DNA from: a virus
Virus record (IMG/VR): IMGVR_UViG_3300032282_001302
Coordinates: 1-31,115 of that record
Direction: 5' to 3' (one strand)
Length of the DNA stretch: 31,115 bases
Shown here: positions 1-31,115 of the stretch, piece by piece
Numbering within the stretch: the first letter of the stretch is position 1
How the letters are laid out: each line of letters begins with the position of its first letter
Program-made: the position numbers and the translations under genes
The notes under the pieces: generated by a model
The model's database searches: none
The model's input: the letters and a program-made list of their open reading frames with translations, nothing else
Told to the model about the DNA's origin: nothing

Positions 1-2961
1 GGCATTCGGTAGAGTTATTGTTACTGTACTTGTAGTTGCACCAGTAATACTAGTAGGAAGTAAAACAACACCACCAGCAGAAGTATCTGAATAAACAACA
101 ACATAATTTTCTGTAACAGCAGAAGAAGCAAAAGTGCCTGCAGCTGTTACTATAGTTAAAGTACAATATCCAGTACCGCCAGAATCTGGAACACCAGTAG
201 TTCCATTAAATTTCTGGACTGCAGTATAAATGATATTTGATACTGCTCTAATAGCATAATTAGGGAATGAGAAAAATAAACCAGCATTTTGTGGTTCGAT
301 AATATCTGTAGAAAGTCTATCGATAGTTACACCAGTAACTGTTACCTGTGTATCAATTGTGATTGATTGTTGACTATTAATAGAAGCAATACGAACACGA
401 GTAGATGAAGAACCAAGATAGAGATAATCACCAACTTTTAAATCTGTTTGGAATGAAGTACCAGAACCACTAATATTACTAGATTGTGTAGTATATGTTA
501 ATCCAATTAAAGTACCAGCTGTAGTAACAATAGCAGAACCACCAGTAGTCGTTAAAGTAAAACCAGTAACGCTTGGTGATGTGCCAGTAACAGCAGAAAC
601 TTTATATGTAGTACCAGTTGTGTAACCAGTTATAGTACCAGTACCAGCATTGGTACCAGTGATAGTAATTAAATCACCAACGGCTAGTGTAGACTGACCA
701 CATGTGAATTGTCCACCAGTTCCAGATGTAGCAACAGTAGGAATTAAAACTGGTACAGTTGCTGTACCAGCTAATCTAGTGGTAATTGGTTGTATATCAG
801 CAGTGAAGTTAGTTTTAACATTAGAGCGATCATAAAATATACTTTTTAGGTCACGCTGTAAGCTAAAGCCAGGATTTAATTTAACATCAAATAATGATAG
901 TTTATATTGAGCAGTTTGAGATCCAACAGTACCATTGTTCCACTCAAAACCTCTAACTCTTGCAGTTCCAATTAAACCATTGGTAGTAACTGTCAATCCT
1001 GTTGGAGTTCCTGTAGTTGTAACTAAAGCAGTTCCAGTAGTATCATTTTGAACTAAAGTAAAACCTGTTGCGGATAATCCACTAGTGCTAATTCTGTATG
1101 TAGTACCAGCTGGATTAATTGTCGCTATAACAGTAGCAGTTGCTGTAGTTGTAGAAGCGATTGATAGTACAGTACCACCTGGAGTTGCTGATATAGTTAT
1201 TGAACCAGATGTTGGAATTGATAGTACATAATATGTTGTATTTGCTGCGACAGATCCAACAGCAGCATTAAACTGAAGTGGCATACCAACAGTAAGACTA
1301 GTTGTAGTTAAACCAGAAATAACATTGGTACCAGTAGTAGCAGTAACTGAAGCAGCATTAGCTAAAGTTAATGTATAACCAGTAATAGTTCCAACTGTAG
1401 CAACAGTACCAGCACCCCAAACACCAGAAATAGTAATAAGCTGTCCACCATAAAGACTTGAAGGGCTAACTGATGTAAAAGTAAACTGACCAGCAGTACC
1501 AGCTATCACAAGGTTACTAATTGATACAGGAGTAGGCACTGCTCCAACTGCAGCATTGGCAATATTGTATAAGTTTACAGTACTAAAGTTTTCAATCGGT
1601 GGAGCACCATTAATATTGGTAACTGTAATATAATTACCCATAGTTGCAGAAATAACAGAATTATCTACACTGGTATAGTCACGTGCTTTCTTTACTGGAA
1701 CATATGTGGTTGAAACTTTTTCAATTTCATAACCCTCAACATATGCTTTTCCAGGTTCAAGTCCAATAGCAAGTTTAGTCTCATCTCCACCATTTTCTGG
1801 AGTATAAACTCCACGATTATAAAATACTTGATCTACGTTAACTTGATATTCCCAGTTAACACCTGATGTAGAACCACCATCATATGATGTTCCAGTTGTG
1901 TGTGTTGGACCAACACCAGATTGTCCAACAGATGTTGCATTATTTTTAGCAACATATACATACCCAGCATTAGTAACAACATCATTAATTAGGTAAGCCT
2001 TACCAACTACCCATGCTCCACGATTATTATTTCTGTGTTCACGAACATCGATATTAAATGGACGAACAGTATAGTTACCAGATTCGTCAAATGTTCTACG
2101 AGCTAATGTTTTTTCTACTTCATTGTAATCTGTTTTTTCTACAATAGAAACAGTTTTTCCAGAATTAACTCTAACCAACTCAACAAAATCTGTATCACTA
2201 GTAGAAGATGTACTTAATTTTGTTAATGTTAAATCTATAGTATAACGATGTGCTCCTGGAGCAGCATAGTTATATGAATTTTGTGCATTGTCCAGTAATG
2301 AATCATCATCTTCTGGAATAGTAACACTCTCTGTTGCAAGAACACCAATACGATAAGTTGGTGTTGAGCTGTACTTATCAAGGATGATAGTTTGTGGTGT
2401 TACAAGAACGAAATGATTTTTAATGTAGTAAACACCCTGTTCAATCTGTGAAATAGAACCTGTTCCAGTAGGACTTGTTGCATAAACTTGAACTGATGCT
2501 AAAGTAGTTCCTACTGCAGTATCAGTAAGAACGTCGCCTGCAGTGAATACTTTTGTAGTATTGTTATTTGTTTGAGAATTTGTATATTTTACAAATAGAG
2601 TTGGAGGGTCAGTTCCATCTGATCTTGCATAGTAAATAACCTGCGCACGTAAATGATTTGAATTTTCAATAGTTTTACCAACATATGTGACTAACAACTC
2701 ATCAGTCAATACGTTATTATAAGTAGACTCTAATTTAATATATGATATACTGGTATCAACAGAAATTTGTCCTGGGATAACCATCGCACCATTTTTAAAG
2801 ACATGCGAACCAAATTTACTAATTTGGTTTTGCAGAATACTCTGCATCTGAGTGAGTTCACGTGCCTGAACTGCGTAAGATGGACGATATAGAATTCGAT
2901 AAAACTTTTTAGCTTCATCGAAATCGTCGTAATATGGCTCAGTATTAAAATTGATAGTCAT
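1..2961 (-). CDS. DUF4815-type virion structural protein (3' end outside window)
   Basis: An open frame runs from an ATG at 2961 to the window edge (987 codons, no stop), so the C-terminus is missing. An AGGAAA ribosome site lies just upstream. The N-terminus (FNTEPYYDDFDEAKKFYRIL, then YRPSYAVQARELTQMQSILQ) is the hallmark of the DUF4815 family of marine T4-like phages, where it is a baseplate/tail structural protein. From about residue 477 to 660 the family sequence is interrupted by Thr/Gly/Val-rich beta modules (LITISG, TITGY, TTYYVLS), before IGTARVRGFEW restores the family pattern. A second such module follows near residue 740. It is the last readable gene of the minus-strand baseplate operon and has its own late-promoter-like motif. 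Family assignment is from memory of conserved motifs; the exact baseplate position is unknown. Confidence 0.72.
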   Translation of the reverse strand, partial: MTINFNTEPYYDDFDEAKKFYRILYRPSYAVQARELTQMQSILQNQISKFGSHVFKNGAMVIPGQISVDTSISYIKLESTYNNVLTDELLVTYVGKTIENSNHLRAQVIYYARSDGTDPPTLFVKYTNSQTNNNTTKVFTAGDVLTDTAVGTTLASVQVYATSPTGTGSISQIEQGVYYIKNHFVLVTPQTIILDKYSSTPTYRIGVLATESVTIPEDDDSLLDNAQNSYNYAAPGAHRYTIDLTLTKLSTSSTSDTDFVELVRVNSGKTVSIVEKTDYNEVEKTLARRTFDESGNYTVRPFNIDVREHRNNNRGAWVVGKAYLINDVVTNAGYVYVAKNNATSVGQSGVGPTHTTGTSYDGGSTSGVNWEYQVNVDQVFYNRGVYTPENGGDETKLAIGLEPGKAYVEGYEIEKVSTTYVPVKKARDYTSVDNSVISATMGNYITVTNINGAPPIENFSTVNLYNIANAAVGAVPTPVSISNLVIAGTAGQFTFTSVSPSSLYGGQLITISGVWGAGTVATVGTITGYTLTLANAASVTATTGTNVISGLTTTSLTVGMPLQFNAAVGSVAANTTYYVLSIPTSGSITISATPGGTVLSIASTTTATATVIATINPAGTTYRISTSGLSATGFTLVQNDTTGTALVTTTGTPTGLTVTTNGLIGTARVRGFEWNNGTVGSQTAQYKLSLFDVKLNPGFSLQRDLKSIFYDRSNVKTNFTADIQPITTRLAGTATVPVLIPTVATSGTGGQFTCGQSTLAVGDLITITGTNAGTGTITGYTTGTTYKVSAVTGTSPSVTGFTLTTTGGSAIVTTAGTLIGLTYTTQSSNISGSGTSFQTDLKVGDYLYLGSSSTRVRIASINSQQSITIDTQVTVTGVTIDRLSTDIIEPQNAGLFFSFPNYAIRAVSNIIYTAVQKFNGTTGVPDSGGTGYCTLTIVTAAGTFASSAVTENYVVVYSDTSAGGVVLLPTSITGATTSTVTITLPNA

Positions 2962-23114: not shown

Positions 23115-23141
23115 AAAAAGGGCTACTCCGTAGAGTAGCCC
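23115..23141 (-). terminator. Intrinsic terminator of the gp32 operon, between convergent genes
   Basis: A perfect 9-bp stem GGGCTACTC / GAGTAGCCC with loop CGTA (23120-23141) is followed on the minus strand by five T. A second small hairpin, AAATAC-CTTA-GTATTT (23146-23161), sits between it and the gp32 stop at 23164. The plus strand has no T-run after the stem, so termination of the tape-measure transcript here would be weaker. Confidence 0.85.
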
Positions 23142-23163
23142 TAGTAAATACCTTAGTATTTGA

Positions 23164-24922: not shown

Positions 24923-25082
24923 TTTTCAATTTCCTACATTCATTACGAACTTCAATAGGGAAGTCGGGTGATATCTCTGCCATTCTACAGTCATATACAA
25001 TTGTACCATGAAGAGGGATGAGTGACAAAGATATTCCCATTATAATAATACCAATAACCCCAGCAAACCAAAAATTATACAT
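24909..25082 (-). CDS. Small single-pass membrane protein
   Basis: 57 aa, too short for common gene-length cut-offs but well supported: ATG at 25082 overlaps the coactivator stop by 8 bases and its TAA at 24909 overlaps the gp59 start by 14 bases. The N-terminus is one hydrophobic helix (FWFAGVIGIIIMGISLSLIP). The rest, YDCRMAEISPDFPIEVRNEC followed by RKLKSGRI, has two cysteines and a motif (DC..AEISPDFP..VR..CRK) that I recognise in many small proteins of marine T4-like phages. Its function is unknown. Context, between the late coactivator and gp59, suggests early to middle expression. Confidence 0.75.
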   Translation of the reverse strand: MYNFWFAGVIGIIIMGISLSLIPLHGTIVYDCRMAEISPDFPIEVRNECRKLKSGRI

Positions 25083-25314
25083 CTAATTGTGCCTGTTTAG
25101 GTAAGTAATTCAAGTCACGAAAATTCATTTCGATCTTGTCCTTCAAAGACTTGTTGATCAATGATGAAACATCCTCTGGCTCTAGATAGTTGACTCTGCA
25201 ATATTCTAGAACCGCATCCATATAAGTCATTTTAGTCTCACGTACTTTCTGCTCTATATGTAGAGAGAAATCATTAGCATTTTTAAACATCACAACTTCA
25301 TTATCTAGTTTCAT
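25075..25314 (-). CDS. 33: Phage late-transcription coactivator (gp33-like)
   Basis: 79 aa. After a variable start, the sequence NANDFSLHIEQKVRETKMTY, MDAVLEYCRVNYLEPEDVSS, LINKSLKDKIEMNFRDLNYL ends in PKQAQLDV. This I.......T.YMDAV..YC....LE.E....LI.K.LK.KI......LNYLPK pattern is that of the phage late-transcription coactivator family of T4-like phages, which links gp55-RNA polymerase to the sliding clamp at late promoters. The start MKLDNEVVMF fits the -AAGCTTAATATG spacing after the upstream 149-aa gene stop (1-nt gap). TAAATA-type late motifs are present elsewhere in the window, consistent with such a system. Confidence 0.72.
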   Translation of the reverse strand: MKLDNEVVMFKNANDFSLHIEQKVRETKMTYMDAVLEYCRVNYLEPEDVSSLINKSLKDKIEMNFRDLNYLPKQAQLDV

Positions 25315-26176: not shown

Positions 26177-27172
26177 TCACCTAAGAAAAACATTAACACT
26201 TGATACATTTCGAATCACATCATTAGGAACTGTAAAGGTTACTGGAACTACCTGTTGCTTCTCGTCAATTAAAAGAGCAGGTTGGTTGTAACGAACATTG
26301 TAATTTCTAAATATCGAATTATTAATTGTCTCTCCAGCTGCAACATAACGATACATCTTCATGTCTAAGAATTGTTCGTACAGTACAACTTGTTCACCAT
26401 TAACATCAGCCACTAAAGTTAGTTTGGGGTTTATTGGGAAAGTCATATCAACATTGATACTTGAACATTCGTTGCCAGAAAAACACACCATCATATTTTG
26501 ATTTCGTGGTTGCTCAGGTTGCTTAGTTGCATTATATACACCAAGAGAAGCTAATGCACCTATTGGACCAAAGGCAGTCATCGAGTATGATATAGCTCCA
26601 CCAGTAATTGTTTCACGAATATTGTTATTCGTATTACCTTTCTGGTTTACTACACTGGCAAATGCCTTCATATCACTTATCCATTTAGGTTGCCATGATA
26701 AAACTATATTAGTAGATATAGTCGTTTCATATCTTCCAATTTTATGGAAAGGTTGCATTGAATCAGCACGAATTGCAGTAGAGATATCATCTAAACGACG
26801 AACAACTCGCTCTCGCTTATCATAGTCTTCAAAATCAATATCCAGTGAAGTAGTATTACCTCGCTTCATAGAATTATTCTTTGGAACTACATCTGCAACA
26901 ATCTCTACTTCATATCCCACAGGAGTGGAGTTTCTCGAAACAATTTTATATGTTTTGATCACTCCACCATTATACTGATCAATCTCTTCTGTGGCACGAC
27001 CATTCCTAACTCGATTCTCACCGATGAGAAATGTACTAGCACCTTTCTCTAATGCTAGAGTCTTTGCATTTTCCAATGCAGAGTTATATGTTGCACCATA
27101 ACCAGTCACACGTACTTCTTCAGCAGAAGCAATTGATGATATGATCAACAAAGACAGAAGAGTCTTTTTCAT
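26177..27172 (-). CDS. Secreted periplasmic protein with FlgT-N-like domain
   Basis: 331 aa. A Sec signal peptide (MKKTLLSLLIISSIASA) is followed by EEVRVTGYGATYNSALENAK, TLALEKGASTFLIGENRV, IKTYKIVSRNSTPVGYEVEI. The order V.G.G.....A...A...AL..G...........I..Y.I.......YEV.I is that of the FlgT N-terminal domain found in flagellar H-ring and related envelope proteins. The rest (residues 100-331) contains MTFPINPKLTLVADVNGEQV and beta-rich segments without a family I can name; it has a Cys pair near residue 230 (VCFSGNEC). It overlaps the lipoprotein stop by one base. A host-derived or host-acting envelope function is inferred. Confidence 0.6.
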   Translation of the reverse strand: MKKTLLSLLIISSIASAEEVRVTGYGATYNSALENAKTLALEKGASTFLIGENRVRNGRATEEIDQYNGGVIKTYKIVSRNSTPVGYEVEIVADVVPKNNSMKRGNTTSLDIDFEDYDKRERVVRRLDDISTAIRADSMQPFHKIGRYETTISTNIVLSWQPKWISDMKAFASVVNQKGNTNNNIRETITGGAISYSMTAFGPIGALASLGVYNATKQPEQPRNQNMMVCFSGNECSSINVDMTFPINPKLTLVADVNGEQVVLYEQFLDMKMYRYVAAGETINNSIFRNYNVRYNQPALLIDEKQQVVPVTFTVPNDVIRNVSSVNVFLR

Positions 27173-27846
27173 TAGAAACCATTCATTTGCGTACGAACCA
27201 AAGCTGCAGCATTGATGCTTTTCTTAGAGACCATCATAGTCACAGCAACCATATTTGAGTCACGATCAACAGTACGACTCGCAATGTAAGCACCACGTAG
27301 GATACCCTGCGAGTTATCGTTGATAGTCTCTGTCACTGATTGTGAGATTTTATTGGCACGATTACGTTCTTCTTGGCTGTACTGAGAGTGGTCTACTTCA
27401 GTATCGCTTCCGAACAATTCATCGGACTTGGTATCTTTATTTCGTTTACGATTCTCGCTACCATTAGATGACACGATGTCTTTCAATGCAGTCTTTGTAA
27501 CATTCTCGACTGCTTTACCAGACTTAACATCGTTGTTCAAAAATTCAACTAGATTGCGTTTGGCACGCATAGTGGCTAACAAGAATGCGTCTTCACGTCC
27601 TTGGGCATGGTTGAAATTGATAGGTGCAGTACCAGATGTCTTGATTAACAACCACTCACCCTCATCTGAGAATTGTAGCTGTACTGTTCCAGCTGTTTCA
27701 AGAAATTCTGCTTCAGCTTTCTTGATATCTGGCTTCGACTCTAGTTTGTTTTCAATCTTAGTTACAGGGGCAGGTGCTTCTCTGGTAGAAGCACATCCAG
27801 TCACGAACAGTGCAAGCACCGCCATTGATATAATACCTTGTTTCAT
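27172..27846 (-). CDS. Outer-membrane lipoprotein, LPP20-like (envelope module)
   Basis: 224 aa with a lipoprotein signal: MKQGIISMAVLALFVTGC, lipobox V-T-G-C18, then a Pro/Lys-rich linker. The folded part contains AGTVQLQFSDEGEWLLIKTS, GREDAFLLATMRAKRNLVEF, LNNDVKSG, a charged low-complexity region (NGSENRKRNKDTKSDELFG), then NKISQSVTETINDNSQGILR and GAYIASRTVDRDSNMVAVTM. The A...A..RA..NL.EF helix and the 'G.......D.....V.V..' ending are like LPP20/FlgP-type lipoproteins that sit beside FlgT-type proteins. Ser-after-Cys (+2 Ala) favours outer-membrane sorting. ATG overlaps the stop of the upstream 41-aa gene (ATGA); AAGGA upstream. Similarity is by pattern only. Confidence 0.62.
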   Translation of the reverse strand: MKQGIISMAVLALFVTGCASTREAPAPVTKIENKLESKPDIKKAEAEFLETAGTVQLQFSDEGEWLLIKTSGTAPINFNHAQGREDAFLLATMRAKRNLVEFLNNDVKSGKAVENVTKTALKDIVSSNGSENRKRNKDTKSDELFGSDTEVDHSQYSQEERNRANKISQSVTETINDNSQGILRGAYIASRTVDRDSNMVAVTMMVSKKSINAAALVRTQMNGF

Positions 27847-29072: not shown

Positions 29073-29630
29073 TTAGTTGAGGTCTTTAACTTCATCGCAT
29101 AATCCTAGACTTTTTGCTTCTGATGCACTAAGCCACATATCTTGCGGTGGTAGTAATAACTCTTTAATTTTTGCTTCAGATAAACCACTACATTTTTTAT
29201 AGTGAGCAATCATCTTCTTTGTAGTAAGATCAAATTGTTTAACTGTGGCAAACAACTCATGCTCTTTTCCAAACGCACCCCATGAATATTGATGCGATAG
29301 GATTGATGTATTTGGTGTAAGAAGTCGTGTTCCTTTAGTACCAGCAATAAAAATCATTAAACCAGCAGAAGCGATCTCGCCAAGACCAATCGTTCTAATT
29401 GGAATAGCAGAACCACGCATGGCATCAATGATAGCAAATGCTGCACTTAACTCACCTCCAGGAGATGTGATAACCAGATTTAACATATCTGGTCTTTCTT
29501 CCTGAAAGTTACATTCAAAAATCCATTCAACTGTTTGTTTTGCAGTTTGAAGGTTAATCTCTTCCATCAGCAAGAAGAATGAATGTTGGGCGTCCTCTGT
29601 TTCGTTCAACTGTAGATTTAGTTTCTTCAT
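29073..29630 (-). CDS. clpP: ClpP-like serine protease (family S14)
   Basis: 185 aa from ATG 29630, chosen because AGAGGA lies 6 bases upstream; a longer in-frame start exists at 29669. The complete catalytic triad is visible: Ser88 in LGEIASAGLMIF, His113 in SILSHQYSWG and Asp164 in PPQDMWLSASEA, with oxyanion-loop sequence ITSPGGELSAAFAIIDAM. E. coli ClpP (193 aa mature) has the same spacing. No Clp ATPase gene is present in the window, so the enzyme may use a host ATPase or work alone. Phage ClpP-like proteins can be head-maturation proteases, but this one sits with a lysis gene away from the head genes. The first 77 bases overlap the SleB gene. Confidence 0.88.
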   Translation of the reverse strand: MKKLNLQLNETEDAQHSFFLLMEEINLQTAKQTVEWIFECNFQEERPDMLNLVITSPGGELSAAFAIIDAMRGSAIPIRTIGLGEIASAGLMIFIAGTKGTRLLTPNTSILSHQYSWGAFGKEHELFATVKQFDLTTKKMIAHYKKCSGLSEAKIKELLLPPQDMWLSASEAKSLGLCDEVKDLN

Positions 29631-30165
29631 TAGATATTCCTCTTTCTGTATAAAATATATGTCTTCCAATTGTCACAGTTTTTTGTAGTTTCCATTTAGG
29701 ATTAACATAATCTGCATGATAATATAGAGCACCCTTAGTAATGTCTTTTAACTTTTCATAGTTAGCGTAAACATACAACGCTGCTTCACGTGATAGCTCA
29801 TACTGTTGTTTCTGCCTATCCGTAACTTTGTGTTCACATATCCATGTAAACTGACAGGTATAGTTAGTCTTTTGTTTAACTACACCGCAAATATTTTTAG
29901 GGAATCTCGGGTCTTGTACTCTATTTAGAGTGACAAAGGCTACTGCCATTCTACCCTGTTGTGTTTCATAACCAGCTTCATGATAAACATTGTCTGCTAG
30001 ACAATCAATTTCTTTCTGCGTTTCTTTAGTTAGTTGGCTATAACTTATTTCAAGTATTCTGTTTGTCGTTGGTTTGTTGTTTGTGTTTACTACATTTATA
30101 CAACTTACAACTGTCAGTATTATTAATAGTATTAACGAAAGTAATATTAGTATGCGGTTGTGCAT
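29554..30165 (-). CDS. SleB-type cell-wall hydrolase (endolysin candidate)
   Basis: 203 aa. A hydrophobic N-terminus (NRILILLSLILLIILTVVSC) works as signal or anchor, with a possible lipobox (V-V-S-C22). The catalytic domain is Hydrolase_2 (SleB): DCLADNVYHEAGYETQQGRM with Glu of YHEA as likely catalytic acid, AVAFVTLNRVQDPRFPKNIC, QFTWICE, and ALYYHADYVNPKW with GRHIFY. SleB enzymes are lytic transglycosylase-like and occur as endolysins in marine phages. The hydrophobic start would allow export without a holin; no holin is obvious. Strong AAGGAGA precedes the ATG at 30165. The C-terminal tail overlaps ClpP. Confidence 0.85.
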   Translation of the reverse strand: MHNRILILLSLILLIILTVVSCINVVNTNNKPTTNRILEISYSQLTKETQKEIDCLADNVYHEAGYETQQGRMAVAFVTLNRVQDPRFPKNICGVVKQKTNYTCQFTWICEHKVTDRQKQQYELSREAALYVYANYEKLKDITKGALYYHADYVNPKWKLQKTVTIGRHIFYTERGISNEETKSTVERNRGRPTFILLADGRD

Positions 30166-30220: not shown

Positions 30221-30496
30221 TCAGGTTGACTTTTTGCTTATAGTCTTTGTATCTTGGGGGATGTTTGAAACGAAACCATTCAAGACCTGAGCCTTTGCAA
30301 TGATATCATTTTCAGATGGGATAGCAGGGAATCCTGGGTGATCAGGAATCGTGCCTCCATTGAGTTTAGCAGATTCGACTTTCATATGCCAGTCGTTGCT
30401 AATTTGTTCACGCTTACCGTAGTATTCATCGTTAAGCATGTCTTTCGCCATTTTTAGTAGTTCAAGGCGAATCTCGAACGGTGTCAAATTACTCAT
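30221..30496 (-). CDS. Conserved phage hypothetical protein
   Basis: 91 aa. MSNLTPFEIRLELLKMAKDM, LNDEYYGKREQISNDWHMKV, then PDHPGFPAIPSENDIIAKAQ and VLNGFVSN. The pattern LTPFEIRL.LL.MAK.ML...Y, DW......A...G......P.FP..PSE.DI..KA..L..FVS is one I recognise in many aquatic T4-like phages; its function is not known. AAAGGAGT precedes the ATG at 30496. It is followed by the hairpin at 30188-30210. A CTAAATA motif at 30565-30571 lies 70 bases upstream and could be a late promoter, at low confidence. Confidence 0.7.
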   Translation of the reverse strand: MSNLTPFEIRLELLKMAKDMLNDEYYGKREQISNDWHMKVESAKLNGGTIPDHPGFPAIPSENDIIAKAQVLNGFVSNIPQDTKTISKKST

Positions 30497-30563: not shown

Positions 30564-30749
30564 TTATTTAGGTGATTCAGCTTTTTTCTTTGGTTTTGGC
30601 TTAGTGCCTTTTGGTGGTGGAGGACAATTACCTTTCTTGTCTTTCTTCACACAGTTTTGGTTTTCAGATGCTGGTTCTTTCTTGACATCAGCAGCATAAC
30701 CAGCTGACATCAATGATAACGATACAATCAGTGCAGTCAATAACTTCAT
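30564..30749 (-). CDS. Small secreted Lys/Pro-rich protein
   Basis: 61 aa. A Sec signal peptide (MKLLTALIVSLSLMSAGYAA, cleavage after A-Y-A) is followed by about 41 mostly hydrophilic residues: ENQNCVKKDKKGNCPPPPKG then KPKPKKKAESPK, with two cysteines 8 residues apart and many Lys and Pro. A strong AGGAGA site precedes the ATG at 30749. It directly follows the tmRNA terminator on the same strand. I do not recognise a family; small secreted cationic proteins of this type could act in the periplasm, but that is speculation. Confidence 0.6.
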   Translation of the reverse strand: MKLLTALIVSLSLMSAGYAADVKKEPASENQNCVKKDKKGNCPPPPKGTKPKPKKKAESPK

Positions 30750-30762
30750 ACGATCTCCTGTT

Positions 30763-30801
30763 AATAAAATGGTAGCTTATTCTGTTACGAGGAAAGCTAC
30801 C
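30763..30801 (-). terminator. Intrinsic terminator of the tmRNA gene
   Basis: Stem GGTAGCTT (minus strand 30801-30794) with AAGCTACC (30778-30771), 15-base loop, followed on the minus strand by ATTTTATT. It directly follows the tmRNA coding piece and could alternatively be the last stem of the RNA itself. Confidence 0.6.
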
Positions 30802-30818
30802 GAAACCCTAAGCAGCGT

Positions 30819-30851
30819 TTAGGCTGCTAATGCGAACAGTTCGTCGTTTGC
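30819..30851 (-). other. tmRNA tag reading frame (ANDELFALAA)
   Basis: Eleven codons including TAA, preceded by CGTAAAC as upstream resume signal. Eight of ten residues equal the E. coli tag ANDENYALAA; the C-terminal ALAA is the classic ClpXP degron. Confidence 0.93.
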
Positions 30852-30937
30852 GTTTACGTTGTTTTAGTTTTAACACCTACTCTGGTGAGTTGTCCACTTC
30901 TGTACTATTTGCCCTGTCGAATACTGAGTACACCCCC

Positions 30938-31037
30938 ATCAAAAGCACAGAAGTTCGTAGAACTTCGTCAAAGGAACCTGTCTCGAATATGCTCGCTAGT
31001 TGCGATCTGAAGCCAGCATATCGTCTATCTGCACTTT
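30938..31037 (-). other. tmRNA intervening segment (removed in processing)
   Basis: 100 bases between the CCA end (31038) and the 5' end of the coding piece (30937). Its ends pair with each other: AAAGTGCAGA near the CCA with TCTGTGCTTT near GGGGG (10 pairs, two of them G-U), extending the acceptor stem as expected for a permuted precursor. Inside are two further hairpins: ATATGCT/AGCATAT and GAAGTTC-TAC-GAACTTC. Confidence 0.8.
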
Positions 31038-31107
31038 TGGTGGAGGTGAGGGGATTTGCACCCCTGTCCAGAACACATTTCTAGTTGCTTCAAACAAGCA
31101 TATCACA

Positions 31108-31113
31108 ATTATA
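31108..31113 (-). promoter_or_regulatory. -10 box of the tmRNA promoter
   Basis: Perfect TATAAT on the minus strand, predicting a start near 31101 at the beginning of the acceptor piece. The -35 would lie beyond the window edge. Confidence 0.55.
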
Positions 31114-31115
31114 CA

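Follow-up and report, generated by a model that had tools for sequence, protein, structure and literature searches.

A two-piece tmRNA gene of the betaproteobacterial type in a T4-like phage genome

A permuted (two-piece) tmRNA gene was found on the minus strand at positions 30765-31113, at the right end of a 31.1 kb virus record (the window, that is, the whole stretch of 31,115 nucleotides that was analysed). Judged from its sequence and from its conservation in related phages, this gene of a T4-like phage probably (probability of about 0.82) gives a functional two-piece tmRNA, which would be processed by the host and would rescue ribosomes via host SmpB.

The tmRNA gene and its place in the window

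Analysis of the window with cmscan revealed a match to the Rfam model RF04321 (tmRNA_permuted) at positions 30819-31099 (−), with 107.3 bits (cut-off, 47 bits), an E value of 2.8e-20 and coverage of the whole model. In addition, RF01850 (beta_tmRNA) matched positions 30765-31115 (−) with 107.1 bits (cut-off, 84 bits), and the levels reached by the alpha and cyano models, 32.2 and 29.6 bits respectively, were both below cut-off. With RF01850 above its cut-off and outscoring the alpha and cyano models, the window tmRNA is of the beta type. ARAGORN independently identified a permuted tmRNA (tmRNA*) with the tag ANDELFALAA. A circularly permuted tmRNA on this strand had been proposed in an earlier, sequence-only reading of the DNA, along with an Infernal search with the permuted Rfam models as a check; RF04321, RF01850 and ARAGORN all agree with that proposal. 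The acceptor/T-arm part is located upstream of the 5′ acceptor strand, as in the permuted form, and the two-piece gene is complete except for the −35, because the contig ends there.

The elements listed in that reading, namely a seven-position acceptor stem with G3-U70, the T arm, the UUCGACAGGG block and the tag, can all be read in the sequence, and the ends it gave for the two pieces are correct (Table 1). The acceptor stem has 7 bp, with G3-U70 and a CCA end, its 3′ strand being CACCUCC-A-CCA (ending at 31038) and its 5′ strand GGGGGUG (starting at 30937). The T arm was read by eye as GGAC-AGGGG-UGCAAAU-CCCCU. In the 5′ piece, UUCGACAGGG is followed by the resume codon GCA, the tag and the UAA stop, and relatives bear identical or similar tags. 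The intervening segment differs in the alignment of relatives; it contains a hairpin, GAAGTTCTACGAACTTC, at positions 30950-30966 (−), a possible processing signal.

Table 1. Features of the tmRNA gene and of its neighbourhood in the window
Feature	Position	Strand	Basis and remarks
−10 element TATAAT, sigma-70 type promoter	31108..31113	−	Sequence; 44 nt before T arm
3′ piece (acceptor 3′ strand, T arm, encoded CCA)	31038..31099	−	RF04321 alignment, sequence; 3′ end 31038, 5′ end approximate
Intervening segment, removal by processing expected	30938..31037	−	Sits between CCA end and 5′ acceptor strand
5′ piece (acceptor 5′ strand, D loop, tag frame, last hairpin)	30765..30937	−	RF01850 to 30765; ARAGORN
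Tag reading frame GCA AAC GAC GAA CUG UUC GCA UUA GCA GCC UAA = ANDELFALAA*	30819..30851	−	Sequence, models, ARAGORN
Hairpin GGUAGCUU...AAGCUACC, part of tmRNA body (beta model)	30768..30801	−	RF01850; terminator scan
First small ORF after tmRNA	30564..30749	−	Neighbour by synteny in relatives
91-aa protein, second syntenic neighbour	30221-30496	−	Strongly kept beside tmRNA in many viral contigs
Cell wall hydrolase	29554..30165	−	PF07486; syntenic in relatives, on the strand of the tmRNA
ClpP-like protease	29073..29630	−	PF00574 4e-29
gp33-like late transcription coactivator	25075..25314	−	PF16805 1.4e-19
Strong intrinsic terminator-like site after gp32	23119..23142	−	10-bp stem and T run

The gene's own −10, claimed in the sequence-only reading, is present as TATAAT at 31113-31108, and its spacing to the T arm is the commonest distance among relatives; the −35 of this promoter would fall past the contig end. 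Of 33 distinct upstream regions from relatives, 22 contained TTGNNN-16..18-TATAAT (shuffled regions, 0.005 each), in nearly all of these at 44-46 nt before the T arm. The same reading had assigned the gene a terminator of its own. A terminator right behind the tmRNA was rejected: the GGUAGCUU...AAGCUACC hairpin lies inside the beta tmRNA model, was not picked by the terminator scan and belongs to the tmRNA body, of which it forms the final hairpin. The hairpin at 23142-23119 is the likely end of the tmRNA-led block.

The window contains the T4-type families gp6, gp25, gp5, gp4, tail tube, gp32, gp59 and gp33. With these T4-type baseplate, neck and replication genes it belongs to a T4-like phage, and the phage-encoded, T4-like setting described earlier is borne out. 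The tmRNA heads a one-strand block, in which it is followed by small ORFs, the cell wall hydrolase, the ClpP-like gene, a GP88-like gene, two secreted-type proteins, gp33, gp59 and gp32. Searches of PHROGs, Pfam and deposited phages gave no match to the 91-aa protein. Two proteins at 26177-27172 and 27172-27846 (−), one with a signal peptide and the other lipoprotein-like, have no Pfam match; this pair occupies the region of the curli-pore genes of phage Melnitz and was present in only one (L061) of the first 121 relatives.

Conservation in relatives

Relatives were gathered in four ways: by the T-arm pattern, by the T-arm pattern requiring a UGC loop, by the ClpP-like neighbour and by gp32. 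Each of the two T-arm pattern scans gave at least 120 viral contigs, so such tmRNA genes are common in viral contigs. Helix 2, formed between the two pieces, was 99.2% paired in the 63 distinct phage rows sharing one register, whereas pairing dropped to 27-56% in a control in which the helix was slid by 1-3 columns. Compensatory pair types were observed in this helix (C-G/U-A, 36/26; also G-C/A-U). In loci chosen by ClpP, and not by tmRNA, G3-U70 was present in 43/43 tmRNAs and the tags all ended in LAA. Altogether, the conserved pairing, G3-U70, the LAA end and the fixed promoter, TTGNNN-17-TATAAT, form what is most likely the pattern of a working tmRNA driven by a host promoter. In the gp32-chosen set a tmRNA was found within 10 kb in only 9 of 19 records, and the tmRNA is thus dispensable in the wider phage group. 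ARAGORN also revealed unannotated permuted tmRNAs in the deposited phage genomes L433 (phiCbK), L434 (S-CAM1) and L288 (BUCT-ZZ01).

The best bacterial matches to the window tmRNA were blocks of 34-50 nt, with no near bacterial copy, and identification of the host via the tmRNA was rejected on these grounds. Exact matches to the T-arm pattern were mostly from Rhodocyclaceae. The fit to the beta-type model suggests a host among the Betaproteobacteria.

Elbow positions 18 and 55

The canonical elbow G18, G19, U55, C56 is usual, though not strictly defining, for tmRNA. The window tmRNA, whose elbow is read from 31069-31038 and 30937-30910 (−), has the T loop UGCAAAU, where UUC is usual, and AG in the D loop in place of the usual GG, so that its elbow reads A18-G19 and U54-G55-C56 and departs from the canonical set. 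In tRNA numbering, G18-U55 is swapped for A18-G55, A18 being read with one inserted base in a linker one base longer than usual. This noncanonical elbow does not exclude membership in the tmRNAs, since it is shared by many phages and by 12/12 alphaproteobacterial-type copies. The partner of G18 in tRNA is the conserved pseudouridine at position 55 (PMC4810234).

In a comparison of 266 distinct permuted tmRNAs, G18/U55 was found in 77 bacterial copies of beta or other non-alpha type (77/77) and in 69 phage copies, and A18/G55 in 12 alphaproteobacterial-type and 101 phage copies, the G55 rows having been enriched by the UGC-loop scan and the D loop having been no selection criterion. Seven further copies, all from phages, had G55 with an ambiguous register (TAGG, longer linker), and U55 with A18 was found in none of the 266. 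In a gp59 tree, positions 18 and 55 switched jointly in all 8 supported independent pairs (p about 0.008), and the same was observed for 11 supported independent pairs in a tmRNA tree built without the two loops (p about 0.001); both are quick trees, with long branches in that of the tmRNA, and intragenic recombination could carry the two loops along together. The two trees led us to reject a single inherited event as the origin of the elbow change.

A scan of 398 genomes of the same phylum gave the UGC pattern together with an acceptor resembling that of tmRNA in 13. Twelve of these hits were tmRNA genes, each with AG in the D loop, and we take them to be alphaproteobacterial from their acceptor and gene form. 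Since these 12 show A18/G55 too, the change is not a purely phage trait. A U-to-G change (G55) was reported for Caulobacter tmRNA in 2005 (PMC1168896). Our literature search found no earlier report of the joint 18/55 change, which does not prove that none exists; the joint A18-G55 replacement in many phages is perhaps new, G55 alone being already known in Caulobacter. It is a tentative proposal, to which we give well under even odds, that the near-universal contact G18-U55 has been exchanged for A18-G55 as a unit many times, in phage and in some alphaproteobacterial tmRNAs, with loss of the pseudouridine site at 55 and with rescue kept.

Proposed function, alternatives and known phage tmRNAs

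In the proposed mechanism, a host-type promoter, of which the −10 is seen in the window and the full form in relatives, would drive a single precursor, from which host tRNA-processing enzymes would excise the intervening segment, as in known permuted tmRNAs. What would hold the two RNAs together is the acceptor stem plus helix 2, as the covariation shows. Host AlaRS would use G3-U70 to charge the tmRNA, and its delivery to stalled ribosomes would fall to SmpB and EF-Tu of the host; no SmpB gene was found above cut-off in 13 related phage records (records possibly incomplete). Addition of (A)ANDELFALAA would free ribosomes on mRNAs broken in infection and mark the unfinished proteins for host proteases, and translation would most likely be sustained in this way during host RNA degradation. 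The sequence-only reading had suggested that the phage supplies or re-targets ribosome rescue. Supply is likely, given the beta-type tmRNA and the host-type promoter, but there is no sign of re-targeting: the tag is betaproteobacterium-like, retaining the AND... start and the ...ALAA end of betaproteobacterial tags.

The ClpP-like gene brings in a different account, in which phage tmRNA and phage ClpP, encoded in one gene block, would form a tag-and-destroy module: through the tag, proteins of the host or unfinished ones would reach a Clp protease modified by the phage, and amino acids would be recycled. Alignment of the ClpP-like protein with solved ClpP structures (E 3e-17) matched the Ser/His/Asp triad, and by this alignment and the PF00574 match the neighbour at 29073-29630 is assigned to the ClpP family with a full triad. 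Besides the full triad, the strong conservation of the protein argues for such a module (77-92% identity in relatives from the best 80 among 255 viral contigs). So does its linkage to the tmRNA: 45 loci had a ClpP relative and 5 kb or more of DNA upstream of it, and in 43 of them a permuted tmRNA was located 0.9-3.4 kb upstream of ClpP and on its strand, most of these loci having been chosen by ClpP and a minority from the tmRNA pattern. This linkage may reflect common descent, the ClpP relatives being close. In the gp32-chosen set, 19 records extended 7 kb or more upstream; of these, 8 contained the tmRNA only, 2 ClpP only, 1 both and 8 neither. On these counts an obligatory pairing of the tmRNA with ClpP was rejected, and the linkage belongs to one phage sub-clade; because of them, a tag-and-protease module is possible in one sub-clade and is not general. 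Two tyrosines that we take to belong to the ATPase-docking pocket of ClpP are N and V in the alignment of the window protein, and no Clp ATPase was found above cut-off in 11 related records (records possibly incomplete); both observations weigh against the module. Degradation of host proteins via phage tmRNA has been proposed earlier (PMC9004378), which speaks for it, and altogether we consider this account rather unlikely.

Less probable still is a decoy role, in which the phage RNA would bind host SmpB or ribosomes and lower host trans-translation, as with the tRNA-domain-only RNA of mycobacteriophage DS6A. A TLD-only phage tmRNA inhibits host tmRNA, according to work cited in PMC4131195, and the window elbow is unlike that of beta hosts; the relatives, however, keep the tag frame, the resume codon, the stop and the LAA end, all superfluous for a decoy. 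That the gene is a passenger, a decaying copy of host ssrA picked up by chance, is hardly credible: host ssrA genes do serve as phage integration sites (PMC9004378), but the fixed place and promoter in many phages, the compensatory helix changes, the joint 18/55 change and the lack of a near copy in bacteria all speak against it.

Ribosome rescue by a host-processed tmRNA is the reading that we prefer. For phage tmRNAs, a role either in maintaining translation or in the tagging of proteins of the host has been proposed (PMC9004378). Buchholz et al. 2022 (PMC9004378) described a two-piece ssrA beside a gp33-like gene of the T4-like methylophage Melnitz, as well as 53 two-piece forms (50 of them from marine/aquatic phages) in a count of 133 unique phage tmRNA structures; the tmRNA database holds 79 unique phage tmRNA sequences (PMC11915505). 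The novelty implied by the first reading thus falls, two-piece tmRNAs of phages, T4-like ones included, being already published (PMC9004378); the window tmRNA is a further example, of the beta type. Melnitz (a Methylophilales phage) and related pelagimyophages are alike in the permuted tmRNA, the T4-like aquatic phage, the gp33-like region and the sigma-70 type promoter (PMC9004378). On the other hand, the ssrA of Melnitz is of the alphaproteobacterial type with a glutamine riboswitch, whereas the window tmRNA fits the beta model best and cmscan found no riboswitch above Rfam cut-offs in the window. Unlike Melnitz, the window has a ClpP-like gene between the tmRNA and gp33, and the ClpP synteny downstream of the tmRNA in one sub-clade may be new.

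Betaproteobacterial tmRNAs (RF01850) share with the window copy the gene order, −10 position, acceptor, tag and conserved core. They differ in having G18/U55 in place of A18/G55 and the bacterial 3′ terminator helix of the RF01850 model, absent from the window tmRNA; the model gave 244-300 bits on three bacterial genomes vs 107 for the window copy, so the phage tmRNA is strongly diverged. The alphaproteobacterial tmRNA (RF01849) has G55 in Caulobacter (PMC1168896) and A18 in the 12 bacterial copies, but its acceptor sequence is another and the window reaches only 32 bits with the alpha model. The one-piece tmRNAs of Bacillus phage G, mycobacteriophages Bxz1 and others (PMC4131195) are likewise phage-encoded, but not permuted.

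A ribosome-rescue RNA borne by a phage bears on how translation persists while host RNA is destroyed, and the syntenic ClpP-like gene offers a concrete way to ask whether phages couple tagging to degradation. The joint change at 18 and 55 is strong evidence that the phage RNAs are folded and selected. It also amounts to an experiment by nature on the amount of change that a tRNA elbow tolerates, accessible to ordinary tmRNA assays. If the swap as a unit is real, phages might gain from it, for example by no longer depending on host TruB or by evading nucleases directed at the elbow.
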